53,252 nucleotides of DNA from Verrucomicrobiia bacterium (lineage in GTDB: Bacteria; Verrucomicrobiota; Verrucomicrobiia; Limisphaerales; Pedosphaeraceae), in contig DATAUW010000015.1 of assembly GCA_036268055.1 (NCBI GenBank), positions 1 to 53,252 of the forward strand, written 5' to 3'. A program made the translations under genes and the position numbers. Every line of letters starts with the position of its first letter. Within the stretch, counting starts at the first letter, position 1. The notes under the pieces were generated by a model. That model was not told the origin of the DNA, made no database searches, and saw only the letters and a program-made list of their open reading frames with translations. Of the stretch, positions 36,704-53,252 are shown one piece after another.

Positions 36704-36712
36704 AATTCAACT

Positions 36713-36743
36713 ACGGCACGGCGAGCGTACTCGCGAGCCCCAT
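36713..36743 (+). repeat. GGCGAGCGTAC palindromic repeat, copy 2
   Basis: ACGGCACGGCGAGCGTACTCGCGAGCCCCAT, between two convergent genes. Stem GCGAG-CGTA-CTCGC. Shares the core ACGGCGAGCGTACYCGCGAGCC with the copy at 30149. Confidence 0.55.
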
Positions 36744-36764
36744 CTTTTCCCCTCCACAATTCCC

Positions 36765-37688: not shown

Positions 37689-37899
37689 ATCGAATTACCC
37701 AAATAAAAATCTAAAATCAAACTGTCTAGCCACGTCCGCAAACCCAAACCTTCTCATTAACCCCCAGCTTAAGCTGGGGGAATAAAACACGAGCGCCCAC
37801 CACAAACCGTTTTAACGGTTTGCCACCCCAACGCCCACTATCTTCAATTCCCTTAACTCTCTCAGTCCCCTCTCCGCGCCTCCGCGCCTCCGCGGTTAA
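37689..37899. repeat. Intergenic region with perfect palindromes and CTCCGC repeat
   Basis: 37761-37780 is a perfect 20-bp palindrome, CCCCCAGCTTAAGCTGGGGG. 37804-37821 is AAACCGTT-TT-AACGGTTT, an 8-bp stem. 37871-37898 is a CTCCGCGCC-type repeat ending CGGTTAATCATCC, reaching the stop of the methyltransferase gene. Confidence 0.65.
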
Positions 37900-38673
37900 T
37901 CATCCTTTCCTGGCCACCACCAACAACGACTGCCCCACCGGCGGCGCGATTACCTTCTCCAGCCGCGATTCCCACGGGACAATATAATTATCAAAAAAGT
38001 GTATCTGCCCATCGCTCTGCGTAAGGCTCTTCGCCACGCGCGCATTCCACAACCACCCCCACACGCCGATGAAATTAAAATACCGCATCCGCACCATCGT
38101 CATCCCGGTCTTCCGCATCAACGCCGCCGCCGAGCCTTTTGAATAACGCCGGTAATGCCCCAACCGCCGGTCAATCTCGCCGAACAACCACGGAACCGCC
38201 GGAATCAGCAATACCAGCAACCCGCCCGGCGCGAGCCGTTTGCTGAACGTATTCACCGCCAGTTCGTCATCCTCCAGATGTTCGAGCACATTCATGCACA
38301 CCACTGTATCCGCCTGATAATCCGCGCCCATGAACCGGTCCAACGATTCCGCCGTGATATTATAAACCTTCACGTTCGGCATCCCGCGAGTCTTCTCGGC
38401 CAGTTGCGCGTAACAATAATTATTCGGTTCCACGCTCACCACCGAATCCGCCACCCGCGCCAAATCCGGCGTGAAATTTCCGATGCCTCCGCCCACCTCC
38501 AACACTTTTCGGCCGAGATACGGCGAAATCATTTTGAATTGCCACTGGCGATAGTTGACAGCCTTCGCCATCTGCCGGAGGTCCTGCGCGAAAAAAGGGT
38601 CGGCCTCGATCGTGAACTCGTTTGTTGTGTCAATTCGTTGCACGTTGATGGGTGCCGTCAAGGCTCGCGCCAT
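37900..38673 (-). CDS. SAM-dependent methyltransferase
   Basis: 257 residues, class I fold. Motif I is VLEVGGGIGNFTPDLA (about 56-71), with SVEPNNYC after it and VVCMNVLEHLEDDE as motif post-II. The region LAPGGLLVLLIPAVPWLFGEIDRRLGHYRRYSK is typical of methyltransferases that accompany family 2 glycosyltransferases. Its substrate cannot be read. Transcribed on the minus strand toward the glycosyltransferase gene, 211 bp away, so the two may form a loose set. It lies immediately left of the biosynthetic locus, but is separated from it by repeats and divergent orientation. Confidence 0.85.
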   Translation of the reverse strand: MARALTAPINVQRIDTTNEFTIEADPFFAQDLRQMAKAVNYRQWQFKMISPYLGRKVLEVGGGIGNFTPDLARVADSVVSVEPNNYCYAQLAEKTRGMPNVKVYNITAESLDRFMGADYQADTVVCMNVLEHLEDDELAVNTFSKRLAPGGLLVLLIPAVPWLFGEIDRRLGHYRRYSKGSAAALMRKTGMTMVRMRYFNFIGVWGWLWNARVAKSLTQSDGQIHFFDNYIVPWESRLEKVIAPPVGQSLLVVARKG

Positions 38674-39019: not shown

Positions 39020-40327
39020 ATGAGCAGCACCGACTACGATGTCATCATCATTGGTTGTGGCCCCGGCGGCAGCAGTGCGGCCACTTTTCTCGCCCGCGCA
39101 GGGCGGCGCGTCCTCGTCCTCGAAAAGGAAATTTTCCCGCGCTTCCACATCGGCGAATCCCTCCTGCCCTGCAACCAAACCATTCTCCGCGAAATGGGCG
39201 TGCTCCCCGAACTTCAAAAATCCGATTTCCCCCGCAAGTTCGGCGCGCAATTTTGCCTCGGCAACGGCACGATCAACACCCGTTTTATTTTCGGCGACGG
39301 CAAGTTCAACCGCGAACCGGAAACCTTCCAGGTCGAACGTGCGCGCTTCGATCACATCCTCCTCAAGCACGCGCGTTCCTGCGGCGCAGAAATCCGCGAA
39401 GGCTGGCAAGTCACGCGTTTCACTCCCGCCGAGGACTCAGTGACGGTCGAGGCCAATTCGCCCGACGGCCAGCCGCAAAAATTCACGGCGAAATATCTAA
39501 TTGATTCCAGCGGGCGCGGCAATGTCACCGGCAATCAGGAAGGCACGCGCGAGATTGATCCCAAATTGAAAAAGCTCGCCCTGTTTGGGCACTTCCACAA
39601 TGTCCGCCTGGATGAAGGCAGCGCCGGTGGCGATACCATCATCGTGCGTTTGGAGAATAAATGGTTTTGGATCATTCCCGTTTCGTCGGACAAAACCAGC
39701 GTCGGCCTCGTCATTGACAAAGATGAATTCAGCCGCACGTCCGGCACGCCCGAGGAAATTTTCAAGCAATGGATCGCATCCAGCCCCGTCATTGCCGAAC
39801 GCATGGCCAATGCGGAATTGATTGACAGCATGAAAACGACCAGCGACTTCAGCTATCACAACCGAAGCCTCACCGGGCCGCGCTGGTTGCGCGTAGGCGA
39901 TGCCGCCGGTTTCATGGACCCGATTTTTTCCGCCGGTATTTTTCTCGCAATGTGGTCCGGCAAGATCTCCGCTGAGATCTTGACAAAGAAGCTCAAGAAC
40001 GGAGCGCCGGGCGGGCGGGCCTTTACAGCCTATGAAAAACGCGTGAAGCGCGGGTTGCGTTTTTATTGGCGCGTCGTGGAAAATTATTACACCACGCCGT
40101 TCATGGAACTTTTCCTGCAACCGCGCAACCACTTCGACCTGCCTTCGGCGGTGAGCGCCGTCCTCGCGGGCGAATTGGAAGGCGGTTTCGCCTTGCGCTG
40201 GCGGCTCGAATATTTTTTCCTGCTCGTCAAATTGCAAAAACGCTGGCCGCTCGTCCCGCACATTTCTTTCGCTCCCGTCGCGCCGATGAAAAAATCCTGC
40301 GCGCCGCGCGCCACCACCACCGTTTGA
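39020..40327 (+). CDS. Halogenase-like FAD-dependent oxidoreductase
   Basis: 435 residues from the ATG at 39020 (MSSTDYDVIIIGCGPGGSSAATFL). FAD motif GCGPGG at 12-17. PRFHIGESLLP (about 40-50) and WFWIIP (215-220) match conserved segments of flavin-dependent halogenases and their relatives (the GWxWxIP motif). RKFGAQF contains a Lys (73) at a place where halogenases have the catalytic Lys. GDAAGFMDPIFSAGIFLAM is the second FAD-binding segment. Related geranylgeranyl-reductase and monooxygenase proteins share parts of this pattern, so halogenation is possible but not shown. It is the first gene of the biosynthetic locus, coupled to the following gene. Confidence 0.85.
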   Translation: MSSTDYDVIIIGCGPGGSSAATFLARAGRRVLVLEKEIFPRFHIGESLLPCNQTILREMGVLPELQKSDFPRKFGAQFCLGNGTINTRFIFGDGKFNREPETFQVERARFDHILLKHARSCGAEIREGWQVTRFTPAEDSVTVEANSPDGQPQKFTAKYLIDSSGRGNVTGNQEGTREIDPKLKKLALFGHFHNVRLDEGSAGGDTIIVRLENKWFWIIPVSSDKTSVGLVIDKDEFSRTSGTPEEIFKQWIASSPVIAERMANAELIDSMKTTSDFSYHNRSLTGPRWLRVGDAAGFMDPIFSAGIFLAMWSGKISAEILTKKLKNGAPGGRAFTAYEKRVKRGLRFYWRVVENYYTTPFMELFLQPRNHFDLPSAVSAVLAGELEGGFALRWRLEYFFLLVKLQKRWPLVPHISFAPVAPMKKSCAPRATTTV

Positions 40328-40836
40328 AACGCCACCACGCTCCACCCACGGGAACACATTTTTCGTCGTGCCGCCTCGCCGGCATGCTGCTCCTTTTTTG
40401 TTTTCTCGCCTTGTCCGCAACTTCCTGCCGCACTATTGCCCCGCTCGCTCCCGTCAATCTTTTGCAACCGGGCTGGCATGTGCGCCAGGGGCAAGCCGTC
40501 TGGAAACCGCCCGGCGCGCGTCCCGAACTTTCCGGCGAATTGCTTTTCGCCACCAATGACGACGGCGATTCCTTCATTCAATTTTCCAAAAGTCCTTTCG
40601 CGCTCGTGACCGCGCAGACTTCGCAGAAACGCTGGCACATCGAATTCGGTTCGGGCGATTATTCTTTCGGCGGCATCGGCCAGCCCTCCGAACATTTTGG
40701 CTGGTTCAAACTCGCGCCCGCGCTCGGCGGCGCGAAACTTTCTCCACCCTGGCATTTTGAGCGCACGTCCGACACCAACTGGAAATTGTCGAACATCCGC
40801 AGCGGGGAAATGCTGGAAGGTTTTCTCTCGCCGTGA
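40324..40836 (+). CDS. Hypothetical lipoprotein in biosynthetic locus
   Basis: 170 residues if it begins at TTG 40324 (overlapping the previous stop as TTGA); 150 from ATG 40384. The longer form gives a basic n-region before MLLLFCFLALSATSC, a lipobox-like sequence. The mature part has PGWHVRQGQAVWKPPGARPELSGELLFATNDDGDSFIQFSK and SGEMLEGFLSP. No family is recognised. Exact start overlaps on both sides (TTGA before, GTGA after) indicate translational coupling in a continuous operon with the oxidoreductase and the exporter. Confidence 0.65.
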   Translation: MKRHHAPPTGTHFSSCRLAGMLLLFCFLALSATSCRTIAPLAPVNLLQPGWHVRQGQAVWKPPGARPELSGELLFATNDDGDSFIQFSKSPFALVTAQTSQKRWHIEFGSGDYSFGGIGQPSEHFGWFKLAPALGGAKLSPPWHFERTSDTNWKLSNIRSGEMLEGFLSP

Positions 40837-43800
40837 AGTCGCGTCTCTGGCGATGGTGGTGGGTTCCGGCGCTGGTGTTGATCGTCATCGGCTTCGCGCG
40901 GCTGCGCTTTGACGTCGAAGTCCTCGACCTTCTGCCCGGCGATCTCCCTTCAGTTCACGGCCTCAAATTGTATCAGCAGGAATTTGCCAATTCCCGCGAA
41001 CTGCTCATCACCGTCACTTGCCCGGATGCCGCCACTTCCGAAAGCGCTGCGCAATCCATCGCCGAAAAACTTCGCGCGCAAACCAATCTCGTCGCCCAGG
41101 TCACCTGGCAGGCACCGTGGCTTGAACATCCCGAGCAAACCTCCGAATTGATCGCGCATCTCTGGCTTAATCAACCGCCCGAAGTCCTTCGCCAATTCGC
41201 CGAACGCCTCGCCGAGACCAATCTTCCCGCCGTGCTCACCGCCACGCGCGAGCAACTCGCCACCACGCTTTCGCCCACCGACCTCGCGCAGTTGAGTTAC
41301 GATCCATTTGGCTTCACGCGCCTGCCCGAAAATGTCATGGGCGCCGCCGCAGGTTTCGGCCAGGGCCAGCAGTTGTTCGCCTCGGCGAACGGCACGTTTC
41401 ATCTGCTCTTCATCAAGGCCGCGACTGAACTCAAAGACTATCGCCAATGCAACGACTGGCTCAATCGCATCAAGGATTGCGTCAACACCGCCGTCCCACC
41501 CTCCGAAGCCACCGCGCGACAATTTTTAAAAATCGGTTACACCGGTCGTCCGGCTTTCGTCGCGGAAATTTCTTCGAGCATGCAGCATGACATGACGCTT
41601 TCCATCGGCGGCACGTCGCTGTTCATCGCGATATTATTTTGGCTCGCGCATCGCCGCGTGAAACCGATGTTGTGGCTGCTGATTTTGCTCGCGTTGATCT
41701 TGGCCGGCACATTGGCGATCGGCGGACTCATCTTCGGTACTATCAATGTCGTCAGCATGGGCTTCGCGGGAATCCTGCTCGGCCTCGCGGTGGATTACGC
41801 CGTCGTGCATTATCAGGAGGCCCTCGCGCATCCCGATCTATCCATCCCTGAAGTGCGCGGAGCGATTGCGCCCAGTATCTTTTGGGCGGCCGTCACCACC
41901 ATCACCGCCTTCGTCATGCTCAACTTCGGAGGCTTGCCCGGCCTCGCGCAACTCGGCTCGCTCGTCGGCATCGGCGTCGCCCTCTCGGCGTGCGTGATGA
42001 TCTTCGCCTTTCTGCCGCCACTGTTTCCCGAACGCAGAAAAAAACGTCCGGTCAATTCATCGCCGCCACTCGCCGCCAACATTGCCACGCCACCACTCAA
42101 TCGCATTCGCGCTAATCTTGTTCTCGCCACTACCGCCGCGATCATCGCCGTTTGCTCTCTCAGCTTATTCACCGGCCTGCCAAAATTAGATCCCACCGCC
42201 AACTCGCTTCAGCCTCGCAACAGCCAGGCATACGCGACACTCGACACCATCAAGACCAATCTCAATCAGCAACGCGAGCCGCTCTGGTTTGTCGTCGAAG
42301 GCAAAAACGAAAGCGAAGTCAGCCGCCGTCTCAACGAAGTCGAACCGATTTTGCAAACCGCCGTCACCAATCATTTACTTACCGGCTTCACTTTGCCAAC
42401 CATGCTTTGGCCGAATCCCGAAGCTCAAGCCGCCAACCGCGCGACGATTCAACAACTCGTCGCTGAGCGTTCCATTTTCCACACGAACGCCCTTGCCGGT
42501 GGTTTCAGCGCCGAGGCGCTGGGCTTGACCGATAGCATTCTCAACACCTGGCAAAATGCCGTCGCCACCACGAATGTCTTCTGGCCGACCAATCAGCTCT
42601 CGCAATGGATTTTCGAAAAACTTACCGCGCGCGCACCCGGCGAATTTTACGCGGCGGGTTTTATGTTTCCCTCGCCCGACACCGTTGCGCATCCGCATCC
42701 GCTTAACGAACTCGAATCGCAGCTTCCACACGATGGCGTCTGGCTCTCAGGCTGGGAATTGGTCGGCGGCAATCTGCTCGGTGTCGTGAGGAAAAATTTA
42801 TGGAAGCTCGTCGCGCCCATGGTCTTTCTGGTTTTGCTTTCCCTCTGGCTCGCGTTTCGTCGCTTCACGGAAATCTTTTTCAGCCTCGCCATTCTTTTTT
42901 TAAGCGGCTTGATTTTATTGACCACGATGAAGTTCATGGGTTGGTCGTGGAATTTGCTCAACCTCATGGCGCTGCCGCTCATCCTCGGTACCGGCGTGGA
43001 CTACAGCATCTTCATGCAACTCGCGCTGCGACGCCACCACGGCGATTTGCATCTCGCGCATATTTCCGTCGGTCGCGCCTTGCTGCTCTGCGGAGCCACC
43101 GCCGTCGCTGGTTTCGGCTCGCTGGCGCTGTCAAGCAATGCCGGCATGTCCAGTCTCGGCCAGGTGTGCGCCGTCGGCATCGCCGGCAACATGCTCATCT
43201 CGGTTCTGCTGTTGCCCGTGTGGTGGCGTCTAACGCATAAAACAAATTCAACCCCGCCGGATTCTTCAACGTCGCAACCTTCGTCGCTCTATCGCACCGG
43301 TCTCTGGTCGCTTGGACTCAAAGTCGCAAAAATCATTCCCACGCGTGTTTGTGCGATCATCGCCCCAATGTTCGCCGTGCTTTACCGGACGTTTGCGGCG
43401 CAACGCCGTGAAATCGTTTTCCAAAATCTTCTTCCGCTGGTGAACCATGACGAAACCGCCGCCCGCCGCGCCACCAATGAACTCTTCCGGCAATTTTCGC
43501 TCAAGCTCGCCGACCTCTGGCACTTCGAGGCCGGCGGCTCGATTGATCATTGGCTTGGCGATTGGCTCGGCTGGGACAGATTTTTAGCTGCCCACGCTCG
43601 TGGCAAAGGCGTTTTGCTCATCACGCCGCATTTGGGAAATTGGGAGTTTGGCGGCGCGTTTCTCGTCCGGCATAACATTGATCTCCTCGTGCTCACCCAG
43701 CCCGAACCTGAGGCGAGCCTTACCAAACTGCGCGAAGCCTCGCGTGCGCGCAAGGGCATCAAGACGCTCGTCATCGGCGAAAACCCGTTCGCCATCGTCG

Positions 43801-44153
43801 AAATTATCAAACTGCTTCAAGCGGGTGCGACGGTTGCGCTCCTGATTGATCGCCCGCCCCCTTCCAACGCCGCTGAGGTGGAATTATTTGGCCGCCCCTT
43901 TCTCGCCTCACTGGCCGCGGCGGAACTCGCGCGCGCCGCGGGCAGCGCGATCATTCCCGGTTACATTGTGCGCAAGGAAAATAATTATGCCGCGCAAATT
44001 TTGCCGGAAATTATTTACGACCGCGCGGCGCTGGGAAATCGCGCGGCACGCATCCGTCTCACGCAGGAAATTCTCCGTGCCTTTGAACCGGCCATCCGGC
44101 AGCATCTCACTCAATGGTATCACTTCGTTCCCATCTGGCCCAAACAACCGTAA
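40833..44153 (+). CDS. MMPL exporter fused to lipid A-type acyltransferase
   Basis: 1106 residues from GTG. The first about 790 residues are an RND/MMPL transporter: a first helix (about 8-22), a large exported loop, a helix group with GLAVDYAVVHYQEA (about 290-410), a second exported loop, and a second helix group with GTGVDYSIFMQLAL (about 640-800). The rest (about 810-1106) is an LpxL/HtrB-type lysophospholipid acyltransferase: HLGNWEFGG (about 932) is the catalytic HxxxxE/D, followed by LLIDRPP and a substrate-binding ending YHFVPIWP. Aryl polyene loci encode such activities as separate genes; a single fused chain would acylate and export the product in one step. No frameshift was found at the join. 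Confidence 0.88.
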   Translation: MKSRLWRWWWVPALVLIVIGFARLRFDVEVLDLLPGDLPSVHGLKLYQQEFANSRELLITVTCPDAATSESAAQSIAEKLRAQTNLVAQVTWQAPWLEHPEQTSELIAHLWLNQPPEVLRQFAERLAETNLPAVLTATREQLATTLSPTDLAQLSYDPFGFTRLPENVMGAAAGFGQGQQLFASANGTFHLLFIKAATELKDYRQCNDWLNRIKDCVNTAVPPSEATARQFLKIGYTGRPAFVAEISSSMQHDMTLSIGGTSLFIAILFWLAHRRVKPMLWLLILLALILAGTLAIGGLIFGTINVVSMGFAGILLGLAVDYAVVHYQEALAHPDLSIPEVRGAIAPSIFWAAVTTITAFVMLNFGGLPGLAQLGSLVGIGVALSACVMIFAFLPPLFPERRKKRPVNSSPPLAANIATPPLNRIRANLVLATTAAIIAVCSLSLFTGLPKLDPTANSLQPRNSQAYATLDTIKTNLNQQREPLWFVVEGKNESEVSRRLNEVEPILQTAVTNHLLTGFTLPTMLWPNPEAQAANRATIQQLVAERSIFHTNALAGGFSAEALGLTDSILNTWQNAVATTNVFWPTNQLSQWIFEKLTARAPGEFYAAGFMFPSPDTVAHPHPLNELESQLPHDGVWLSGWELVGGNLLGVVRKNLWKLVAPMVFLVLLSLWLAFRRFTEIFFSLAILFLSGLILLTTMKFMGWSWNLLNLMALPLILGTGVDYSIFMQLALRRHHGDLHLAHISVGRALLLCGATAVAGFGSLALSSNAGMSSLGQVCAVGIAGNMLISVLLLPVWWRLTHKTNSTPPDSSTSQPSSLYRTGLWSLGLKVAKIIPTRVCAIIAPMFAVLYRTFAAQRREIVFQNLLPLVNHDETAARRATNELFRQFSLKLADLWHFEAGGSIDHWLGDWLGWDRFLAAHARGKGVLLITPHLGNWEFGGAFLVRHNIDLLVLTQPEPEASLTKLREASRARKGIKTLVIGENPFAIVEIIKLLQAGATVALLIDRPPPSNAAEVELFGRPFLASLAAAELARAAGSAIIPGYIVRKENNYAAQILPEIIYDRAALGNRAARIRLTQEILRAFEPAIRQHLTQWYHFVPIWPKQP

Positions 44154-44154
44154 A

Positions 44155-44823
44155 ATGAAAAAAATATTTTTGCTCGCGGCCTTTTTTTGCGGCGCCCTTT
44201 CCGCTCGCGCCGCGGACACCAACGCCATCGTCAACGCCTGGCTCGGCGCGCAAACCAACTTGCAAAATTGGACCGCCGATTTCACACAGACGCGCTCGCT
44301 CAAGACGCTCACACAACCACTGACTTCGACCGGCCATCTCTGGTTTCAAGCGCCGAACCAATTTCGCTGGGAACTTCTGAAGCCCTCACACACCATCGCC
44401 TTGCGGCAGGCCGACGACATGTATGTCATCTATCCCCAACTCAAGCGTGCCGAGCGTTATCCCATCAACGCCAGCGTCCCCGGCGAATGGCGCGAGGCGT
44501 TGTCGCTGCTTGAAGCCGGATTCCCGCGCACCCGCGCCGACCTCGATTCGCATTTTCACATCGGCGCGCTTACCGAAACCAACGGCGCTTATCAACTCGA
44601 ATTACTGCCCAATAGCGCGTTCGTGAAGAAAATGCTCACCGATATTCGCGTCGGGCTGGCCACCAACGATTTTTCGCTCACCAGCACCGAGCTGGTTTTT
44701 ATTGATGGCTCGCGCATGCGAAATGATTTCACCAACGGCGTGATGAATTCAAAATTTCGCGATGGCCTGTTCGATTGGCAACCGCCTGCCGATTACAAAG
44801 TCACCGAGCCTTTCTCCAAATGA
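44155..44823 (+). CDS. LolA-like outer-membrane lipoprotein carrier
   Basis: 222 residues. Signal peptide MKKIFLLAAFFCGALSARAAD (about 1-19). The rest is a LolA-like fold: NWTADFTQTRSLKTLTQPLTSTGHLWFQAPNQFRWEL, then YVIYPQLKRAERYPI. LolA-like proteins occur in aryl polyene loci, where they are thought to carry the lipidated product across the periplasm. It starts 1 bp after the exporter stop codon, so the two are surely cotranscribed. It is too diverged to be the housekeeping LolA. Confidence 0.85.
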   Translation: MKKIFLLAAFFCGALSARAADTNAIVNAWLGAQTNLQNWTADFTQTRSLKTLTQPLTSTGHLWFQAPNQFRWELLKPSHTIALRQADDMYVIYPQLKRAERYPINASVPGEWREALSLLEAGFPRTRADLDSHFHIGALTETNGAYQLELLPNSAFVKKMLTDIRVGLATNDFSLTSTELVFIDGSRMRNDFTNGVMNSKFRDGLFDWQPPADYKVTEPFSK

Positions 44824-45284
44824 ACGCCGATCAACTCGCCGCCGCCTTGCGCCGCCTGCCGCATGGCGCGGAATTTCGTTTTGTGGATCGCGTGACTTAT
44901 CTCGAACCGGGCCGCCAGGGTGAAGGCGAATACCGTGTGCTCGGTGATGAACATTTTTTGCGCGGTCATTTTCCCGGCGAGCCGTTATTTCCCGGCGTGC
45001 TGCTCATTGAAGCCGCCGCGCAGCTTGCCGGGGTCATCGCGCAAAGCGATCCCACAATTCCTCCGCTGGCGAATCTCAAACTGACGGCGATGCGCGCCGT
45101 TAAAATTCTCGGCAGCGCGCACCCCGGCGAAACCCTTCAACTTCAGGCGCAAATCACCGGTCGCCTCGGCAATCTCGTGCAGGCGAGCGCGCAAATTTTT
45201 GTCATGGGAAATACCGTGATGAGCGGCGAACTCACCTTGAGCGGCGACGCCCCTGCCGATGCTCACCGCAACCCATCCACATAA
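44820..45284 (+). CDS. FabZ-like 3-hydroxyacyl-ACP dehydratase
   Basis: 154 residues, hotdog fold, from ATG 44820 overlapping the LolA stop as ATGA. HFLRGHFPGEPLFPGVLLIEAAAQLAG carries the catalytic His50 and Glu64. It would remove water from 3-hydroxyacyl-ACP and create the double bonds of a polyene chain. Last gene of the plus-strand run from 39020; its final 22 bp overlap the end of the convergent ligase gene. Confidence 0.92.
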   Translation: MNADQLAAALRRLPHGAEFRFVDRVTYLEPGRQGEGEYRVLGDEHFLRGHFPGEPLFPGVLLIEAAAQLAGVIAQSDPTIPPLANLKLTAMRAVKILGSAHPGETLQLQAQITGRLGNLVQASAQIFVMGNTVMSGELTLSGDAPADAHRNPST

Positions 45285-46516
45285 CGCTGACGCCACGCCG
45301 CGCGCGAAATTTTTCCCCGTTCATTGACCGGCAGCGATTCAACGAACAGCCATTTGCGCGGCACCTGCCACGCCGGAAGGTTCTGCTGCAAAAATGCTTT
45401 CAATTCATTTTCGTTCGACTGCGCCACCACGACTGCCACGATGACATCAGTGCGTCCCGCGTCTTCGCTCGGCGCGCCGAACACCAGGCAATCGCGCACC
45501 GCGAGGTTCAATCGCAACACCCGCTCAATCACCTCCGGCCCCACTTTGCGGCCGGCCACATTGATCAAGTCGGACGCGCGCCCGCGCAAATAAACGGCGC
45601 CGTCCTTCAACTCAGCCAAATCACTGGTCTGAAAACTTCCGTTGCCGAGCGCATCGTCAGAAATTGGCCAATACCTTTCCCCCGCCGCTGCGCTTCGCAC
45701 AACCAAGCAGCCGCGCGAATTCAATTCCAGTTTCACATTGCGCATCGGCTGGCCAACACACGAATCATCCGTGCGTGGTGTGATGGCGGCATCGTAAGCA
45801 ATCCCGCCGCACTCGCTCGCGCCATAAAAATTATGCACCTTAACGCCGGTGCTCTTGAAAATTTCCGCCTCAAGATTCATGGGCAACGGTGCGCCCGCGG
45901 AAATCGCCAGCCGCACATTCGCCGGCAATGCCTGTGCCTCATGCCACGCGCGCCATAACGCCGGCACTCCCGCCACGGTTAGCGCTATCTCCCCTTCCGC
46001 CGCGCGCCGCACCATTTCCGGCAGCGGATGAGACACATGAATCAAGGGAATGCCATGCAACAAGAGCGGCAGCACGAGATTTGAAAACCCGTACGAATGC
46101 GCCATCGAAATCACCGCGAGATTTGGCCATTCAACCCGCAATCCCATCGTCGCGATGATGTTCTGAACGTCCGCCTCCAACTGCGCCGCAGTGAACGCCA
46201 CGCACCGCGACGGCCCCGTCGTCGCTGACGTGAGTTTCAGATGCGCAATATTTGGCGGCGGCGCGGGCACATCCGGGCGCATGGTTCCCGGCTCAAGCGG
46301 ACAAACAACTTTCCCGTGACGCCAGCCTGCGAGAACATCCATCAGAAATTCTGGAAGCGTCGTGCGCGGAAAAATGATTTTTTCGTCAGACAGCGAAATC
46401 GCCTCAGCGGCGGCTCGCAGTTGGGTAAATGTCCAGCGCATGCCGCTGGCGGAATCGCGTATGGCGATTTCCCCCGGACGTTCCGCCACGACGGCGCACC
46501 AGCGTTTGTAAAGCAT
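45263..46516 (-). CDS. AMP-dependent acyl/aryl-CoA ligase-like enzyme
   Basis: 417 residues, shorter than usual ANL enzymes (about 500). Motif A3 is unusual: TSATTGPSRCV (about 96-106) instead of TSGTTGxPKxV. A5 is NFYGASECGG; A8 GRASDLINVAGRKVGPEVIE; A10 NERGKISR with the catalytic Lys about 402. The loss of the P-loop Gly and Lys may reduce or alter activity, but the other motifs argue for a working ligase. In aryl polyene or flexirubin loci such a ligase loads an aryl acid starter onto the ACP; that is the likely role here. It is on the opposite strand inside the locus. Confidence 0.85.
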   Translation of the reverse strand: MLYKRWCAVVAERPGEIAIRDSASGMRWTFTQLRAAAEAISLSDEKIIFPRTTLPEFLMDVLAGWRHGKVVCPLEPGTMRPDVPAPPPNIAHLKLTSATTGPSRCVAFTAAQLEADVQNIIATMGLRVEWPNLAVISMAHSYGFSNLVLPLLLHGIPLIHVSHPLPEMVRRAAEGEIALTVAGVPALWRAWHEAQALPANVRLAISAGAPLPMNLEAEIFKSTGVKVHNFYGASECGGIAYDAAITPRTDDSCVGQPMRNVKLELNSRGCLVVRSAAAGERYWPISDDALGNGSFQTSDLAELKDGAVYLRGRASDLINVAGRKVGPEVIERVLRLNLAVRDCLVFGAPSEDAGRTDVIVAVVVAQSNENELKAFLQQNLPAWQVPRKWLFVESLPVNERGKISRAAWRQRYVDGLR

Positions 46517-46567
46517 TGTCAGATTGGTAGCGCACGCCTAGTATCAGGCGCAAGTGTCATTTGTCGA

Positions 46568-47353
46568 ATGTCGCAGCCGCACGAAATGTTAACCGCACCA
46601 AAGCCCGGCCAATCCGCTGGCGTCACGCCGCCCGCCAACAGCGCCCGCAAATTTATTTTCGAGCGCGATACGTTTGCTTTCGCGAATGAATTGGTCTGGG
46701 AATACATGTTCGATGCCACAACCGGCAAGACGACTTTTTCGCCGCGCCAACCCAAACCGGATTACACCCACCGCTGCTTCGTCGTGACGCGCGCCGTGCG
46801 GCAATTTTTTAATCACGCCCGCTTCGAGCCCAACCAGCGCGAAGCCAGCGCTGAAATATATCGCAGCCTGATCCGCGAAGTGTTGGCCCGCGAGCCGCGC
46901 ATATTTTCTTCGCCCGACAGACAAATTATTTTTCCTGGCTATACCGGTTTGCGGAATTTCAGCCACGCGCATGAACATTTGCTCAAAGCGGAATGCGGCG
47001 GTGCGTGGCGCTCGTACGTTTTGCGCAGCCATTGGCGGATGGTTTTTCCCATCACGCGAAATCATCAAGTGGAGACTGCCGCGCGACTCGTCAAATCCAT
47101 TCGCGAACGCACCACGGCCATCGTCCATCTTTTTCGTTTTCCCGCGCTCACGATGAATCACGGCATGATTCTTTTCAACGCGATTGAAACCGCCACCGGC
47201 CCTTCCTTTGAAGCTTACGACCCCAACGATCCCGCGCGGCCCACGTGGCTCTCATTCAATCGCGCCGAAAAAACTTTCACTCTCCCCGCGACCCGCTATT
47301 GGCCGGGTGGCAAACTCGAAGCCCTGGAGATTTACCGCAACTGGTGGTTTTAA
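46568..47353 (+). CDS. Unknown protein in biosynthetic locus
   Basis: 261 residues from ATG 46568 (MSQPHEMLTAPKPGQ). No signal peptide or membrane segment. Features include RDTFAFANELVWEYMFD, RQIIFPGYTGLRNFSHAHEHLLKAECGGAWRSYVLRSHWRMVFPI and NHGMILFNAIETATGPSFEAYDPNDP, with several conserved-looking His, Trp and Asp residues. I recognise no family. It is divergent from the ligase gene with 51 bp between the starts, so they share a control region. It is convergent with a small membrane-protein gene 7 bp away. Probably a dedicated member of the pathway. Confidence 0.7.
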   Translation: MSQPHEMLTAPKPGQSAGVTPPANSARKFIFERDTFAFANELVWEYMFDATTGKTTFSPRQPKPDYTHRCFVVTRAVRQFFNHARFEPNQREASAEIYRSLIREVLAREPRIFSSPDRQIIFPGYTGLRNFSHAHEHLLKAECGGAWRSYVLRSHWRMVFPITRNHQVETAARLVKSIRERTTAIVHLFRFPALTMNHGMILFNAIETATGPSFEAYDPNDPARPTWLSFNRAEKTFTLPATRYWPGGKLEALEIYRNWWF

Positions 47354-47360
47354 ATCGCCG

Positions 47361-47756
47361 CTATTCTTCCTTTAGCTCCTTCACATCCGCGCTGCTCGAA
47401 TTATCTTCCACCTGCACAAAAGTTTTCTTTGCCGGGTTCCAAAAAATCGAGCCAAAAAATATCAACCCGCATAAATTAATACCGACGATGTAACCGATCT
47501 TGTAAAACCGTCCGTCGTTATTGGAATCGAAAATTTCCACGTCCTTGTCCATCACCAGCGTCGGCAATGCCATCGGCATCAGCGCGCCGTGCAACATGCC
47601 CCAGCAGAATCCGACCCGTTGTTTTTCTGGAAAGCAATGCGGCGAAGCCCATCCGTAAAACCAGCCGAACAACACCGTGACCAGAATAAATTTAATCGCC
47701 TTACCCCAGGGCAATCGCCGCCATAACGCCGATGCTTTTGCTGAGTCCTCAGCCAT
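47361..47756 (-). CDS. Small membrane protein in biosynthetic locus
   Basis: 131 residues from the ATG at 47756 (MAEDSAKASALWRRLPWGKAIKF). Three hydrophobic segments (about 19-35, 50-66, 90-107), a Cys/Trp/Gly-rich middle (GWASPHCFPEKQRVGFCWGMLHGALMPMALP) and an acidic C-terminal tail. No family is recognised. It begins 2 bp after the stop of the family 2 glycosyltransferase gene, so it is its translational partner. Confidence 0.7.
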   Translation of the reverse strand: MAEDSAKASALWRRLPWGKAIKFILVTVLFGWFYGWASPHCFPEKQRVGFCWGMLHGALMPMALPTLVMDKDVEIFDSNNDGRFYKIGYIVGINLCGLIFFGSIFWNPAKKTFVQVEDNSSSADVKELKEE

Positions 47757-47758
47757 AT

Positions 47759-48505
47759 TCAACTAACCACACCGGCGGTTTTTTTCGGCAACGCACCAGC
47801 ACGATTGCCACTCGACGCCTGTTTCACATGCGAACGTCGCCCCTGCGCCAGCCACCAGCGAAACCACCGCACGCTGTCGCGCACCGGATGTATTTTGCTG
47901 CCGCCGGAATTATAAATCACCTGCACCGGCACAAACTCCACCGCGCAACCCGCCGCCAGAAACGACACCAGCATCTCCGATTCGATCTCGAAATGGTTCG
48001 TGGAAATTTGCACTTGCGCCAGCGTCTCCAAATGCACCAGCCGAAATCCGCATTGTGAGTCTTCAATCCTTTGCCCCGTCAACCGCGAAAGTCTCCGCGT
48101 CATCCAGCGATTCACCCACCGCCGCACCCACGGCATCCCCGCCGAATTGCCCAGACGATTTCCCACCACCAATTTCGCCCCGCTCATTTCCGCGCAACGG
48201 AAGAACCCCGGGATGTCCCCCGCCGCGTGCTGCCCATCTCCGTCCACCACAATCGCCCACGAAAGCCCGCATTCGCGCGCAGTTCGCCAACCCGTCTGCA
48301 ACGCCGCGCCTTTGCCGCGATTTTCTTTATGCCTCACCACCCTCGCCCCCGCCGCCGCCGCCGCCCGCGCCGTGGCATCGGTCGAACCGTCATCCACCAC
48401 GATCACGTGGGGCAAATGCGCGCGAACCGCCGCAACCACTCTTGCAATTTGCGTCTCTTCATTGAAACACGGAATCACCGCCGCGCATTGACAGACCCAG
48501 TCCAT
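47759..48505 (-). CDS. Glycosyltransferase family 2
   Basis: 248 residues, soluble GT-A fold. AAVIPCFNEETQIARVVAAV, VVDDGSTDATARAAAAAGA (nucleotide binding), VVDGDGQHAAGDIP (DxD metal site), then EDSQCGFRLVHLETLAQV and HFEIESEMLV. Similar enzymes are present in aryl polyene and flexirubin loci and may attach a sugar to the carrier or product. The start is the ATG at 48505, 16 bp from the start of an alternative divergent radical SAM frame. It precedes a small membrane protein with 2 bp between them. Confidence 0.9.
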   Translation of the reverse strand: MDWVCQCAAVIPCFNEETQIARVVAAVRAHLPHVIVVDDGSTDATARAAAAAGARVVRHKENRGKGAALQTGWRTARECGLSWAIVVDGDGQHAAGDIPGFFRCAEMSGAKLVVGNRLGNSAGMPWVRRWVNRWMTRRLSRLTGQRIEDSQCGFRLVHLETLAQVQISTNHFEIESEMLVSFLAAGCAVEFVPVQVIYNSGGSKIHPVRDSVRWFRWWLAQGRRSHVKQASSGNRAGALPKKTAGVVS

Positions 48506-48587
48506 GTAGCGATGATACGGAATGGGCTACGAGTGCCAAAGCAAAAACTGCATGGTTCCACCTGCGCTCGCCGGGACTGAGGAATCC

Positions 48588-49616
48588 ATGCTTGAATTTC
48601 CACCTTCTTTTCCGTCGCCGTCCGACCTCACGCTGACCGGCGACGCCCAAATCGCCTGGCATGAAACTGCCGCCGCCGCCACTCGCGCGCAATTTGGCCG
48701 GGAAATTTTCGTCCGCGCCGTCGTTGAAGTCTCCAATTTCTGCCGCGAGAATTGCGCGTATTGCGGAATGCGCCGCGACAACCGCAATCTCCACCGTTTT
48801 CGCGCGCACCACGAGCAACTCGCCGAATTGCTCATCCATCATCGCCCCGCCAGCGTGACCGACATCAATATTCAAGCCGGCGAAGACCCGGTCGCGATCC
48901 GCGAAGTCGTTTTGCCGCTCATCAAGACGCTCCAACAATCCACTTCGCTCGGCATCAGCGTTTGCCTCGGCACTTTGACGCCCGAACTCTATCGCGAATT
49001 GCGTTCCGCGGGCGCCTCAATCTACATCATGAAATTCGAGTGCGCCCTCGAACCGCGTTACCGCCAGATGCACGCGCCCGGACGGCTCGAAGAACGGCTC
49101 GAACACATCCGTCTCCTCGTGAACTCCGGCTGGAAAGTCAGTTCCGGTTTCATCGCGGGATTGCCCGGCCAGGAAACCGATGAACTCATCGCCGCGCTGG
49201 ATCTTGCCCGCGCATTGCCGCTCGAAGGTTGCAGTGTCAGCCCGTTCATCCCCGGCGAAAGCACGCCCCTCAGCGGCAGCGCTCGCTCGAATCCCGATTG
49301 GACTTTTAATTGTATGGCCGCCATGCGCCTGATGCGTCCGCATTGGGTGATTCCCGCCGTGAGCGCGTTGAATCTCGCCGAGAAAAATGGCTATCGTCGC
49401 GGTCTGCGCGCGGGCGCGAACCTCACGACCATCAACCTTACGCCCGACGATATGCGGGGCGATTATGTCATCTATAAACGCGACCGTTTCATCATGACGG
49501 AAAATCGCGTACTCGACGCCATCGCCGCCGAGGGACTGTCGCCCTCCTCGCGCAGCCTGGCTGATCATTACCGCAACTCCGCTCCGTCCGTCGAAACCGC
49601 CGCCGTGCCGAATTGA
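48588..49616 (+). CDS. HydE-like radical SAM enzyme
   Basis: 342 residues from the ATG at 48588, chosen because GAGGA lies 6-9 nt upstream; the ATG at 48522 is possible. The radical SAM cluster is CRENCAYCG (Cys52, Cys56, Cys59). EVSNFCRENCAYCGMRRDN, NIQAGEDP, GFIAGLPGQETDELIAAL, SPFIPGESTPLS and RAGANLTTINLTP follow the pattern of [FeFe]-hydrogenase maturase HydE/PylB-type enzymes (biotin synthase superfamily). No hydrogenase or hydF/hydG genes are in the window. It sits among ketosynthase, ACP and glycosyltransferase genes, so it probably modifies a pathway intermediate or supplies a starter. The substrate is unknown. Confidence 0.85.
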   Translation: MLEFPPSFPSPSDLTLTGDAQIAWHETAAAATRAQFGREIFVRAVVEVSNFCRENCAYCGMRRDNRNLHRFRAHHEQLAELLIHHRPASVTDINIQAGEDPVAIREVVLPLIKTLQQSTSLGISVCLGTLTPELYRELRSAGASIYIMKFECALEPRYRQMHAPGRLEERLEHIRLLVNSGWKVSSGFIAGLPGQETDELIAALDLARALPLEGCSVSPFIPGESTPLSGSARSNPDWTFNCMAAMRLMRPHWVIPAVSALNLAEKNGYRRGLRAGANLTTINLTPDDMRGDYVIYKRDRFIMTENRVLDAIAAEGLSPSSRSLADHYRNSAPSVETAAVPN

Positions 49617-49629
49617 ATTAAATCAACTC

Positions 49630-50868
49630 GTGCTTTTTCCCCTCGCAAAAAAAGGTTCGCCTTGCCGCGTCGTCATCACGGGCGCCGGCATTGTCACCGG
49701 GCTTGGCCTCGGCTGGCGAACGAATGCCGATGGTTTTCGCGCCGGTCGCAATGCCTTCCGCAAAGTCACGCGCTTTGATGTTTCACGCCAGCGCGCGCAA
49801 ATCGCCGCCGAGGTGGATCTGCCGCCCAACCCGCCTTCCACCCGCCTGTCACGTAGCGCCCGCGCTCGGCTCTCTCCGTCCGCGAGCATGCTTTTGTTCG
49901 CCGCGCACGAAGCCTGGACTCAATCCGGTTGGCAACCCGGCGAAAATCTTCCGCTCATGCTCGGCACAACCAGCGGCGCGATGTCCCTCGGCGAAGCCTA
50001 TCTTCGCCAGGCGATGGAATCACCACGCTCCAAACGCCGCCAGCCAACGCGCGTCATCCATTATCAAATCCAGCGTGAAGCCTTGAACGTCTGCGACGCC
50101 TTTGGTTTTTCCGGCCCCATCACCATCATCGCCAATGCCTGCGCTTCGGGCGCGAATGCCCTCGGCCACGCGTGGGAATTATTGCGCAGTGGACGCGTCG
50201 AACGCGTTTTCGCCGGTGGATACGACGCCCTCTGCCAGCTCACCTTTTCCGGTTTTGATTCCTTGCAAGCCCTTTCGGCAGATCCTTGCCGTCCCTTTGA
50301 CGCTCATCGCAACGGCCTCACACTCGGCGAAGGCGCGGCGATGTTCGCGCTCGAAACTCTCGATTCCGCGCGCCGCCGCAACGCCGAAATTCTTGGCGAG
50401 ATCACCGGCTACGGCGCTTCCACGGACATCCATCATCTCACGCAACCGCATCCCGCGGGCGATGCCGCCTTCGCCGCCATGACCGCCGCCTGCGCTGCTG
50501 CCGCGACCACTCCCGAACAAGTGGATTATGTCAATGCGCACGGCACCGCCACCGTGCAAAACGACGGCCCCGAGGCGCTCGCCATCAGCCGCTGGGCCGG
50601 TGCATGCGCGGCGACTTTGCCGGTAAGTTCCACTAAAGCGAGCATCGGCCATTTGCTCGGCGGCGCGGGCGCAGTCGAAGCCGCCGTTTGCTTGATGGCG
50701 TTGCGCGAACAATGGCTCCCGCCGCAAATTGGAACGGGAACTGCCGACCCCGCCTGCGCTTTCTCCCTCGTGCGCGAGCCAAAAGACGCCCGCATCAATG
50801 TTGCCCTGACCAATTCCTTCGGCTTCGGTGGCGCTAACGCCTCACTCCTTCTGCGGAGGTGGTCATGA
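49630..50868 (+). CDS. Beta-ketoacyl-ACP synthase (KS-alpha)
   Basis: 412 residues from GTG 49630. Condensing enzyme of the FabF/type II PKS kind. The catalytic triad is complete: Cys171 in ANACASGANAL, His304 in NAHGTATVQND and His341 in KASIGHLLGGAG (with Lys336). It would elongate the acyl chain with malonyl-ACP. It starts 13 bp after the radical SAM stop and overlaps the next ketosynthase by ATGA, so the two are coupled, the usual arrangement of a KS-alpha/chain length factor pair. Confidence 0.93.
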   Translation: MLFPLAKKGSPCRVVITGAGIVTGLGLGWRTNADGFRAGRNAFRKVTRFDVSRQRAQIAAEVDLPPNPPSTRLSRSARARLSPSASMLLFAAHEAWTQSGWQPGENLPLMLGTTSGAMSLGEAYLRQAMESPRSKRRQPTRVIHYQIQREALNVCDAFGFSGPITIIANACASGANALGHAWELLRSGRVERVFAGGYDALCQLTFSGFDSLQALSADPCRPFDAHRNGLTLGEGAAMFALETLDSARRRNAEILGEITGYGASTDIHHLTQPHPAGDAAFAAMTAACAAAATTPEQVDYVNAHGTATVQNDGPEALAISRWAGACAATLPVSSTKASIGHLLGGAGAVEAAVCLMALREQWLPPQIGTGTADPACAFSLVREPKDARINVALTNSFGFGGANASLLLRRWS

Positions 50869-51896
50869 GCGCCATTTTGATTCGCGGAATCGGCGCCGTG
50901 TCTCCCGCTGGCTGGGGCGTACCCGCCTTGCGTGATGCGCTCGAAAAAGAAATTGCCCTTCCCACTCAACCGATCGTGCGCCCCGGCTGGACTCAACCCC
51001 TGCTCAATCGTCCTGTCCCGCCCTGCACCACTCGCCCCGCTTGCCTGTCCTACCCGCGCTTGCGCCGCACCGGCGCGCTGACCCATCATGTGGTCGCTTC
51101 CGCTTTTGAAGCGATGGGCGAAGATGCCGCCAAAATTCAAGCCGGCAAAATTCGCATCGGCATTATCGTTTGCCTGATGGCCGGCAACGTCGCCTACTCG
51201 CGGCGATTTTATGAAGAAACTTTGCGCGACCCGGCCAGCGCCAGCCCGATGATTTTTCCCGAAACCGTTTTCAACGCGCCTGCCAGCCACCTCGCCGCTT
51301 GCCTCAATTCCACCCAGGCCACGCACACCATTGTCGGCGACGACGGAACTTTTCTACAAGGTGTCGCGCTCGGGGCGGATTGGATTGCGAATGGCCAGGT
51401 GGATTCCGCCGTTGTCATTGGCGCGGAGGAAATGGATTGGATCGTCGCTGACGCCTTGCGCCTGTTTCATCCACAGACTATTCACGGCGCGGGTGCGGGC
51501 GCGCTTTATCTAACGGCCACGCCGGGCGAACCGACGCTCGCAAAATTAAATTGCGTCACCGATTCATTTTTATTTACCGCCGATCAAAGCCGCGCTGATG
51601 CCGCACGAAATATGCGCGCGCAACTTCCGTCGTGCGTCTTGCGCGAAGTGCTTTGTCCGAGCACGCAGGGAATTTCCAAATTGGATGCGCCCGAACACCA
51701 TGCGTGGCTCGATTGGCAAGGTCCGCGCCGCCTGACCCGCACGGTTCTCGGCCAGGCTTTCGCCGCATCCGCCGCGTGGCAATGCGTCGCCGCGTGCGAT
51801 GCCATCCAATGCGCTGCTTTCTCCGCCGCAAACGTGAGCGTGCTCGGCGTCAATCAACAGGCCATCGGCGCGCGATTCGCGCGGACGGCTTTTTAG
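50865..51896 (+). CDS. Degenerate ketosynthase, chain length factor-like
   Basis: 343 residues from ATG 50865, overlapping the KS stop as ATGA, with GGAGG at 50855-50859. Thiolase-fold protein: LIRGIGAVSPAGWGV near the N-terminus, SAVVIGAEEMDWIV. The active-site cysteine is replaced: HTIVGDDGTFLQG is at the place of NACASG, and the two His motifs are not found. It is shorter than normal KS (about 410). Such partners (chain length factor, KS-beta) dimerise with the active KS and set chain length. Its place directly after the KS supports this role. Confidence 0.88.
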   Translation: MSAILIRGIGAVSPAGWGVPALRDALEKEIALPTQPIVRPGWTQPLLNRPVPPCTTRPACLSYPRLRRTGALTHHVVASAFEAMGEDAAKIQAGKIRIGIIVCLMAGNVAYSRRFYEETLRDPASASPMIFPETVFNAPASHLAACLNSTQATHTIVGDDGTFLQGVALGADWIANGQVDSAVVIGAEEMDWIVADALRLFHPQTIHGAGAGALYLTATPGEPTLAKLNCVTDSFLFTADQSRADAARNMRAQLPSCVLREVLCPSTQGISKLDAPEHHAWLDWQGPRRLTRTVLGQAFAASAAWQCVAACDAIQCAAFSAANVSVLGVNQQAIGARFARTAF

Positions 51897-51899
51897 GCG

Positions 51900-52631
51900 A
51901 TGAACTCACGGGTCATCCTCATCACGGGCGCGAACGGTGGACTGGGTCTCGCCTTTGGCCGCGCCTTCCTTGAAGAATCGCCGGGAAATATTATCTGGCT
52001 CGCCATCCGTAATGACCGTACTCGGGCCGATGAACTCGCCACCGCGCATGCCGATCGCTGCCGCGTGTTGCCGTTGGATGTCGCCGATGCCGCCGCATGG
52101 GCCGAAGCAATCAAACAAATTTTAACTAAAGATCAGCGCGTGGACGTGCTCGTGAACAACGCGGGAAAGCACGACGACGTTCTCCTCGCGCAGATGTCGC
52201 CAGAATCCTGGCGCGACGTGATGAACGTCAATCTGGATGGTGTTTTTCACGGTTGTCAGGCAGTCTTGCCGGCCATGATCAATCAACGCGCCGGACGCAT
52301 CGTGAATATTTCCTCGCTCAGCGCCCTGCTCGCGCCGCCGGGCCAGACGAACTATGCCGCCGCCAAGGCCGGCGTAGTGGCCTTGACCCAATCACTCGCA
52401 AAGGAAGTCGCGCGCATCGGCATTACTGTAAACGCAGTGTGCCCCGGCTATGTGGACACCGCCGCGTTTGCCAGTTTGAACGCCGAGGAACGCAAAGCCA
52501 TCCAGGCAAAAATACCGATGCGCCGTTTTGGCCGCCCGGAGGAAGTCACGTCGGCGGTGCTGTTTCTCGCGAGTGCCGGCGCCAGCTACGTAACCGGCTC
52601 GATTTTGAAAGTTGACGGAGGAATTCTCTAA
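51900..52631 (+). CDS. 3-oxoacyl-ACP reductase, FabG-like
   Basis: 243 residues, classical short-chain dehydrogenase. NADPH motif TGANGGLG (about 9-16), VNNAG, and the catalytic Ser (NISSLSALLAPPG), Tyr and Lys (TNYAAAKAG). It reduces the beta-keto group after condensation. Starts 3 bp after the chain length factor stop, and its stop overlaps the ACP start (TAATG). These contacts make one tight operon from 48588 to 52894. Confidence 0.95.
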   Translation: MNSRVILITGANGGLGLAFGRAFLEESPGNIIWLAIRNDRTRADELATAHADRCRVLPLDVADAAAWAEAIKQILTKDQRVDVLVNNAGKHDDVLLAQMSPESWRDVMNVNLDGVFHGCQAVLPAMINQRAGRIVNISSLSALLAPPGQTNYAAAKAGVVALTQSLAKEVARIGITVNAVCPGYVDTAAFASLNAEERKAIQAKIPMRRFGRPEEVTSAVLFLASAGASYVTGSILKVDGGIL

Positions 52632-52894
52632 TGGACGAACTCAAAGAACTGAAAGACCAGATCAAAACCATGATGGTGGAAAACCTCATGCTGCAAATGA
52701 CCGCCGCTGATATCCAGGACGACCAGCCGCTGTTCGGCCCGAACAGCCTCGGCCTCGATTCCGTGGATGCGCTGCAACTCGTGGTCGCGCTCGATAAAAA
52801 TTTTGGCCTGAAAGTCCCCGACCCCGCCGCCGCCAAACAAATTCTCCACAACGTCAATACGATGGCCACCGCCGTTGCCGACCTGCGCAAATAG
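52631..52894 (+). CDS. Acyl carrier protein
   Basis: 87 residues, acidic, helical. The 4'-phosphopantetheine attachment serine is Ser44 in GLDSVDALQLVVALDKNFG. It carries the growing chain for the ketosynthase, reductase and dehydratase of this locus. The start ATG overlaps the FabG stop. It is separate in sequence from a housekeeping AcpP (no DELGADSLD), which supports a dedicated carrier. It is the last gene of the run; nothing further of the pathway is visible before the window end. Confidence 0.95.
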   Translation: MDELKELKDQIKTMMVENLMLQMTAADIQDDQPLFGPNSLGLDSVDALQLVVALDKNFGLKVPDPAAAKQILHNVNTMATAVADLRK

Positions 52895-52904
52895 CGCAAA
52901 GAGT

Positions 52905-53017
52905 TTAATTCACCCGCAGCCGTTCCAGCGCCGCGATGCGTTCCTCCATCGGCGGATGCGTGGCAAACAACGCCATGAACCTCTGCGTCGAGTCGGAAAT
53001 TTTCAGGCCATCCAAAG
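52905..53017 (-). pseudogene. Remnant of M48 family metallopeptidase (C-terminus)
   Basis: Read on the minus strand, the last about 35 codons before a TAA at 52905 give KISDSTQRFMALFATHPPMEERIAALERL, matching the C-terminal end of HtpX/M48 peptidases (FxTHPPxxERIxxL). Going upstream, the frame enters a repeat-like GTCCCGCAGGAC region near 53018 and reaches a stop (TAG) at 53043-53045. The catalytic HExxH part is absent. The gene is therefore either cut by a repeat or restarts beyond it. No start can be assigned. Confidence 0.6.
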
Positions 53018-53140
53018 TCCCGCAGGACAACTGACAATCAATCTAGGGTATGGTAAGGCGGAACCACCGTGGCGCGACCGCGCCGCTCCACCCCTTACTC
53101 TAACCTGGTAGGGCTGCGCGGCAGCGCACTCGTGTCCAGC
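53018..53140. repeat. Repeat-rich right edge
   Basis: AAGTCCCGCAGGACAAC, GACAATCAATCTAGGGTATGGTAAGGCGGA (like the left block at 38755), then CCGTGGCGCGACCGCGCCGC and GGTAGGGCTGCGCGGCAGCGC (like 5996), all short foldable units of the families seen elsewhere. From 53141 to the window end frames are open on both strands, but too short to call a gene. Confidence 0.5.
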
Positions 53141-53252
53141 TATAATTGAAAGGGTGGTCATAATCTTCATATTTTATGCGGGCAAGCTGAAGGTGGGGGC
53201 TGTTACCGACATGGAGTTTGAGTTGAAAATTTTGGGCTTTTTCCCCCATTCC

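Follow-up and report, generated by a model that had tools for sequence, protein, structure and literature searches.

The stretch of DNA analysed here (the window) comprises bases 1-53252 of contig 15 from a genome of 5.1 Mb assembled into 41 contigs, and towards its right end it carries 14 open, tightly spaced genes (39020-52894), three of which (encoding the ligase, the smaller orphan and the glycosyltransferase) lie on the minus strand and the other 11 on the plus strand. Assignment of gene families by Pfam and NCBIfam (Table 1) bore out the gene content given in the original prediction, which had described the region as an unusual aryl-polyene-like biosynthetic locus: a ketosynthase (KS) with a chain length factor (CLF)-like partner, ketoreductase (KR), dehydratase (DH), acyl carrier protein (ACP), ligase, family 2 glycosyltransferase (GT2), LolA-like carrier and exporter-acyltransferase, together with a halogenase-like flavoprotein and a HydE-like radical S-adenosylmethionine (SAM) enzyme. 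The three proteins said to be of unknown family indeed match no Pfam family. Likewise, the ammonia lyase, thioesterase and second KS pair that had been reported missing are absent from the locus, and no aromatic ammonia lyase (PF00221) was found in the source genome at E 0.001, a search that was positive in 5 of 14 control genomes.

Table 1. Features of the locus, with coordinates in the window
Feature	Coordinates	Strand	Evidence
Flavin-dependent halogenase-like oxidoreductase, CmlS type, conserved left end	39020..40327	+	NCBIfam CmlS, Trp_halogenase, WxWxIP
Small lipoprotein, conserved lipobox-like Cys, no Pfam family; position like LolB-like ApeN	40384..40836	+	
MMPL/RND exporter fused to LpxL-type acyltransferase	40833..44153	+	MMPL E 2e-21, Lip_A_acyltrans E 1e-22; matches ApeM
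LolA-like periplasmic lipid/lipoprotein carrier	44155..44823	+	PF03548 E 1e-12; matches ApeL
FabZ-like 3-hydroxyacyl-ACP dehydratase	44820..45284	+	Pfam/NCBIfam
AMP-forming acyl (aryl) ligase	45263..46516	-	PF00501, PF13193
Orphan protein, start codon uncertain	46568..47353	+	No Pfam family
Orphan small membrane protein	47361..47762	-	No Pfam family; conserved G-Y-x2-G-x-N-x2-G-x2-FFG motif
Family 2 glycosyltransferase, like GT part of ApeJ	47759..48505	-	PF00535; ApeJ match E 4e-28
HydE-like radical SAM enzyme, own clade	48522..49616	+	NCBIfam HydE below cut-off; tree
Ketosynthase (KS alpha), Cys-His-His triad present	49630..50868	+	Pfam/NCBIfam, tree
Chain-length-factor-like KS beta, triad lost	50859..51896	+	Pfam, alignment
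FabG-like ketoreductase	51900..52631	+	Pfam/NCBIfam; phmmer Ape match
Acyl carrier protein	52631..52894	+	PF00550; matches ApeE

The arrangement is conserved. The named relatives number 15, all of them metagenome genomes, 14 labelled Verrucomicrobia or Pedosphaera and one 'bacterium'. A search of genomes for the same gene order recovered all 14 genes in identical order and orientation in one locus (L054, genome G047), and in the same order with one inserted flavoprotein gene in another (L039; L171 in G450 looks like the same contig), which excludes a chance arrangement. Two further loci share it in part: in L086 (G002) a large part of the left half is kept, as are KS and CLF, and the HydE-like gene is lacking; in L057 the greater part of the left half is present with two inserted genes, then comes the HydE-like gene and the contig ends. 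There is good support for the gene content, for its conservation and for a coupling between the HydE-like gene and the KS-CLF family, and no product assigned to this arrangement was found.

The oddest component of the locus is the HydE-like radical SAM enzyme, one of several additions to the core set that the original prediction had listed. Its best NCBIfam model is HydE, with 179.4 bits against a cut-off of 254.6, and its eight best solved relatives are all [FeFe]-hydrogenase maturases. It aligns with Thermotoga HydE at E 2e-43 (152 bits) with the CxxxCxxC motifs matched, this motif being invariant in 27 HydE-like sequences; by our reading of this alignment, Arg159 and Thr268 of the HydE chain are Lys and Val in the window enzyme. 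The model and the solved relatives would suit a genuine hydrogenase maturase, or a gene that lies here as an accidental passenger. However, HydG, which was present in 2 of 58 genomes (G038 and G040), was found neither in the source genome (G000, one of the 58) nor in any of the 22 strong carriers of the HydE-like gene. Moreover, the enzyme belongs to a HydE-like clade of 30 rows (SH-aLRT (Shimodaira-Hasegawa-like approximate likelihood ratio test) support 100 in a quick tree), which is separate from eight sequences that are HydE or, in other Verrucomicrobia, HydE-like. The identity as a hydrogenase maturase was rejected on these two grounds, and with the co-occurrence and adjacency described below, we regard a maturase or passenger gene as very improbable. 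Among plasmids, 10 records with a relative of the enzyme were retrieved, each match spanning less than 80% of the query; four of the matches were annotated hydE, four 'radical SAM protein' and two had no annotation under the match, one lay in a Bradyrhizobium context, and identity to plasmid-borne HydE was 30%.

Besides these sequences, a second HydE-like paralogue, about 55% identical, was seen in two loci (L064, G001:C43, and L065, G021:C307) that share the neighbour families F60 and F61. The stretches read there hold no KS-CLF pair and possibly represent a separate system that uses the same type of enzyme.

The association with the KS-CLF pair was followed across the order in 293 genomes, with thresholds of E 1e-90 for the HydE-like gene and E 1e-20 for the CLF; it should be underlined that the CLF model was built from 13 rows, every one taken from a locus bearing the HydE-like gene, so that the model may favour such loci. 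The HydE-like gene was found in 84 genomes and the CLF in 116, with both in 76, the HydE-like gene only in eight, the CLF only in 40 and neither in 169 (Fisher p 5e-31, uncorrected for kinship between genomes). Of the 76 genomes with both, 44 have the two genes no more than 12 kb apart; in the remainder they lie on different contigs, except in G056, where a single contig carries both at a large distance. Five of the eight genomes with the HydE-like gene only are at most 80% complete, the other three 93-97%. At the level of the phylum, 11 of 337 genomes gave a match at E 1e-60, the best besides the source genome (G314 in this survey) being G135 and G322; in all three the gene stands near KS, ACP and flavoprotein genes, the G322 copy being split into two overlapping frames.

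Radical SAM genes of another type accompany the KS-CLF pair in related loci. We read 39 loci from the 40 genomes with CLF and no HydE-like gene (G596 was left out; seven of the 39 stretches are shorter than 10 kb), and in at least 17 of them a B12-type radical SAM gene stands within four genes of KS or CLF, the B12 domain being confirmed by Pfam in three proteins. One member of group X1 scored 395 bits, above the cut-off of 360, with TIGR04072 (rSAM_ladder_B12, 'lipid biosynthesis B12-binding/radical SAM protein'). In the order, TIGR04072 matched 41 of the 293 genomes at E 1e-80, 26 of them over the cut-off, and none of the 14 controls. The CLF is present in 36 of these 41 genomes (p 8e-12, uncorrected for kinship), in 16 of them within 12 kb. 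Among genomes with CLF, TIGR04072 occurs in 28 of the 40 without the HydE-like gene versus 8 of the 76 with it. A one-for-one swap, in which B12 radical SAM genes would take the place of the HydE-like gene, was suggested by the 58 genomes and then rejected, since six genomes (G410, G422, G458, G494, G562 and G568) have the two side by side, and three loci (L161, L162 and L165) show the tandem order HydE-like, TIGR04072, BchE/HpnJ-like, KS. The HydE-like and B12 radical SAM genes hence combine, and do not merely exclude each other. A CrtI-like gene was also present in 7 of the 39 loci. In one KS-CLF locus without the HydE-like gene (L089, G017:C49), genes for a type III polyketide synthase (PKS), a halogenase-like flavoprotein and a CrtI-like protein lie close by, and the locus is perhaps a resorcinol-polyene hybrid.

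With regard to the condensing enzymes, the KS shares 62-73% identity with 14 relatives, versus 34% with the FabF of the source genome. In a tree of 42 rows, which is limited by long branches, all 32 KS of the locus type formed one clade (97/96), and a clade with E. coli FabF and the FabF of the source genome was rejected (approximately unbiased (AU) test, p 0.0034). The KS is thus not a housekeeping FabF; a grouping with FabF/FabB would have counted against the original prediction. A clade with Streptomyces type II KS/CLF was likewise rejected (p 0.018), and one with ApeO was neither recovered nor rejected (support 53/0). The partner protein has its catalytic triad replaced by Asp/Ser/Gln; in all 13 sequences compared, Asp, Glu, Pro or Ala stands at the position of the catalytic Cys and neither His is retained, and because of this loss we read it as a CLF. 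The Gln of Streptomyces CLF is absent from the equivalent place in this family. The solved KS closest by sequence are Thermus FabF and then 9s5h, taken here by its label only, another chain of which is the best match of the CLF. When the CLF model was searched with Foldseek, the top match was the CLF of ishigamide synthase (6kxd, 16% identity), an enzyme that makes a polyene.

The AMP-forming ligase suggests an acid starter, which may be aromatic. The larger orphan has Cys70, His198 and Asp218 invariant in six sequences and a lipoprotein-like N-terminus in two relatives; its model (mean predicted local distance difference test (pLDDT) score 67, best Foldseek E 0.12) hints weakly at a papain-like fold.

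The envelope genes were compared with the aryl polyene (APE) system by searching the window with the 18 Ape proteins of E. coli CFT073 (phmmer, E 1). Eight of them matched: ApeL (LolA, 2e-7), ApeM (exporter, 3e-19), ApeJ (GT2), ApeQ (KR), ApeO and ApeR (KS), and ApeE and ApeF (ACP). ApeL, ApeM and ApeN have been proposed to act in transport to the outer membrane and ApeJ in glycosyl- and acyl-transfer (PMC8253772, as excerpted). The fusion of acyltransferase and exporter in one protein here, unlike in APE, argues that the two work together. From what these families do elsewhere, both a polyene nature of the chain and its export would be expected. By role, the APE locus (ApeA-R) resembles the window in KS, CLF, KR, DH, ACP, ligase, GT2, LolA, MMPL exporter and lipoprotein; unlike the window, it encodes a thioesterase, a methyltransferase and a pair each of DH and ACP, its CLF is accompanied by two KS, and a radical SAM enzyme is absent from the account excerpted from PMC8253772. 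ApeC hits PF13723, whereas the window CLF gives no match to this family at E 0.01, and the DH and lipoprotein fall outside the families of ApeI (PF22818) and ApeN (DUF3261). Profile comparisons of ApeC with the CLF (hhalign, E 0.064) and of ApeN with the lipoprotein were weak and not used.

Other pigment loci show similar partial likeness. Xanthomonadin loci, likened here by description, combine KS-CLF with a dolichyl-phosphate-mannose-synthase-like gene, and the portion of PMC3691225 at hand mentions no radical SAM gene. Flexirubin loci share KR, LolA, GT and exporter by role (PMC3992019, in part), but the window scores below the cut-off with the models FlxB (210.6 bits, cut-off 340) and LolA2 (59.6 bits, cut-off 125), no locus in the source genome exceeds the FlxB cut-off, and the aromatic ammonia lyase of flexirubin loci is the one missing from this genome. 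The core set claimed in the original prediction as that of aryl polyene and flexirubin loci therefore holds as a polyene-type KS-CLF with outer-membrane export genes, but membership of the E. coli-type APE class is not borne out, nor is the flexirubin part by its models. Well-studied pigment clusters of this type have not been reported to have such a radical SAM enzyme.

The halogenase-like flavoprotein matches NCBIfam CmlS with 192 bits (cut-off 900) and Trp_halogenase at E 1e-21. WxWxIP, which we take to be a motif of flavin-dependent halogenases, is present in the window (NKWFWIIP) and in 15 of 16 rows listed, some of which represent one locus twice; the activity is a predicted one. In several relatives the gene directly follows the ACP gene, an arrangement that would suit a carrier-bound substrate. 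Its presence had been counted among the unusual traits, which no longer holds, as a halogenase beside KS-CLF is described for the xanthomonadin loci of Xanthomonas, though not of Lysobacter, in the part of PMC3691225 consulted. In many relatives, among them those with loci L034, L048, L049, L050 and L051, two genes are inserted on the opposite strand between the radical SAM and KS genes: one for a further halogenase-like flavoprotein (F7), the other for a small protein that looks secreted (F6; one member scanned, no Pfam family).

An ordinary aryl polyene locus of the xanthomonadin or APE kind, with divergent genes, could account for the export genes, GT2, halogenase and KS-CLF, all of which have counterparts in those loci; the HydE-like enzyme would then just supply an aryl starter, for instance from tyrosine, without ammonia lyase or chorismate lyase, in keeping with the ligase and with the lack of an aromatic ammonia lyase in the genome. 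We nevertheless consider this explanation unlikely, if worth keeping in mind: the CLF, DH and lipoprotein lie outside the ApeC, ApeI and ApeN families, and sister loci such as L086 and L091 do without the HydE-like gene yet keep the ligase and KS-CLF.

As to the ladderane- and polyunsaturated hydrocarbon (PUHC)-type clusters of type II fatty acid synthase (FASII) genes in anammox bacteria (Kuenenia) and Desulfotalea, the likeness to the window, again by description, lies in FabF paralogues without the active-site Cys (as in Kuenenia), ligase, GT and radical SAM genes; the radical SAM genes there are of the B12 type, and methyltransferase and phytoene-dehydrogenase-like genes are described as well (PMC2649909, in part). 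'Ladderane' clusters called by antiSMASH, of unknown function, are reported in Verrucomicrobiota as well (PMC9902471, in part). Together with TIGR04072 beside KS-CLF and the CrtI-like genes in sister loci, these parallels would fit a cluster in which phytoene-desaturase-like and radical SAM enzymes cyclise, methylate or isomerise a polyunsaturated fatty acid made by KS-CLF, the envelope genes serving just to put the product in place. Such a reading seems rather improbable to us for the window, which has neither TIGR04072 nor a CrtI-like gene; its halogenase, LolA and MMPL exporter find no mention for ladderane clusters in the passages of PMC2649909 at hand. A HydE-like gene in ladderane-type clusters was not found in our searches of the open-licence literature. 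Clusters of the wider ladderane-type kind are, however, already in print, and the HydE-like version is a new variant.

The left border of the locus was placed at 39020, because the window open reading frames (ORFs) of at least 150 amino acids that end before 38947 were not matched by anything in the flanks of three relatives, in contrast to the flavoprotein gene, which was. The genes adjoining it (35240-38673: a membrane protein, a GT2 and a methyltransferase) also had no match in these flanks. The right flank is unreadable, as the contig stops at 53252 inside a dispersed repeat common to several other contig ends; in this terminal part (52900-53252), beside the repeat, a short minus-strand frame ending ...FMALFATHPPMEERIAALERLRVN resembles by eye the C-terminus of an HtpX-type peptidase cut by the repeat.

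We favour, with moderate confidence, the explanation that the locus, a type II PKS/FAS cluster conserved in Verrucomicrobia, directs the synthesis of a polyunsaturated (polyene) acyl chain and its anchoring in the outer membrane, with envelope export in the APE style and radical tailoring of the ladderane type. The chemical path is one that we infer from the protein families. The ligase would load the acid starter, perhaps aromatic, onto the ACP, and KS-CLF, KR and DH would extend it without an enoyl reductase, giving conjugated double bonds, while the flavoprotein may modify the starter end on the carrier. GT2 and the exporter-fused acyltransferase would place the chain on a lipid or glycolipid, and the MMPL exporter, LolA and lipoprotein could carry the product to the outer membrane. 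The HydE-like enzyme would be a dedicated biosynthetic radical SAM enzyme, either standing in for an ammonia lyase in starter synthesis or modifying the chain or head group, and presumably one of a set, including TIGR04072, that members of the cluster family combine in various ways.

Several observations weigh against this explanation. The HydE-like gene and the CLF are not strictly tied, as 40 of the 116 CLF genomes lack the former and 8 of the 84 genomes with the HydE-like gene lack the CLF; within a single genus, the gene is missing in G002 and present in G005; and the p values given above carry no correction for kinship. Ten of the 18 Ape proteins found no counterpart in the window at E 1, including the ligase ApeH, both dehydratases (ApeI and ApeP), ApeD, ApeN and ApeC. 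VIA-align of the CLF recovered just the common KS fold, with no special tie to ishigamide, and the source genome has no TIGR04072 at E 1e-80.

The product first proposed, a polyunsaturated acyl or aryl chain sent to the outer membrane and perhaps of a new class, stands as far as a polyene-type locus with export genes and no assigned product is concerned; the new class shrinks to a new variant, given the 'ladderane' clusters already published. More tentatively, and with somewhat less than an even chance in our judgement, the family might still define a new class of outer-membrane polyene lipids, characterised by the Verrucomicrobia KS-CLF family, APE-style export and mix-and-match radical SAM enzymes (HydE-like, ladderane-type B12 and BchE/HpnJ-like B12), in which the HydE-like reaction would be new to polyketide or lipid biosynthesis.

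To our knowledge, the ladderane pathway is not known. The product of 'ladderane' clusters outside anammox bacteria is also unknown according to the extract of PMC9902471. In the present family, radical SAM genes of the ladderane type adjoin a KS-CLF core that is compact, in loci for which an export route is plausible. If the HydE-like enzyme acts on the starter or the acyl chain, this would be a new function for the HydE/PylB/BioB group, in which we know of none of this kind. The three radical SAM types standing in one operon-like row would, moreover, provide small gene sets in which the role of each enzyme may be tested singly.

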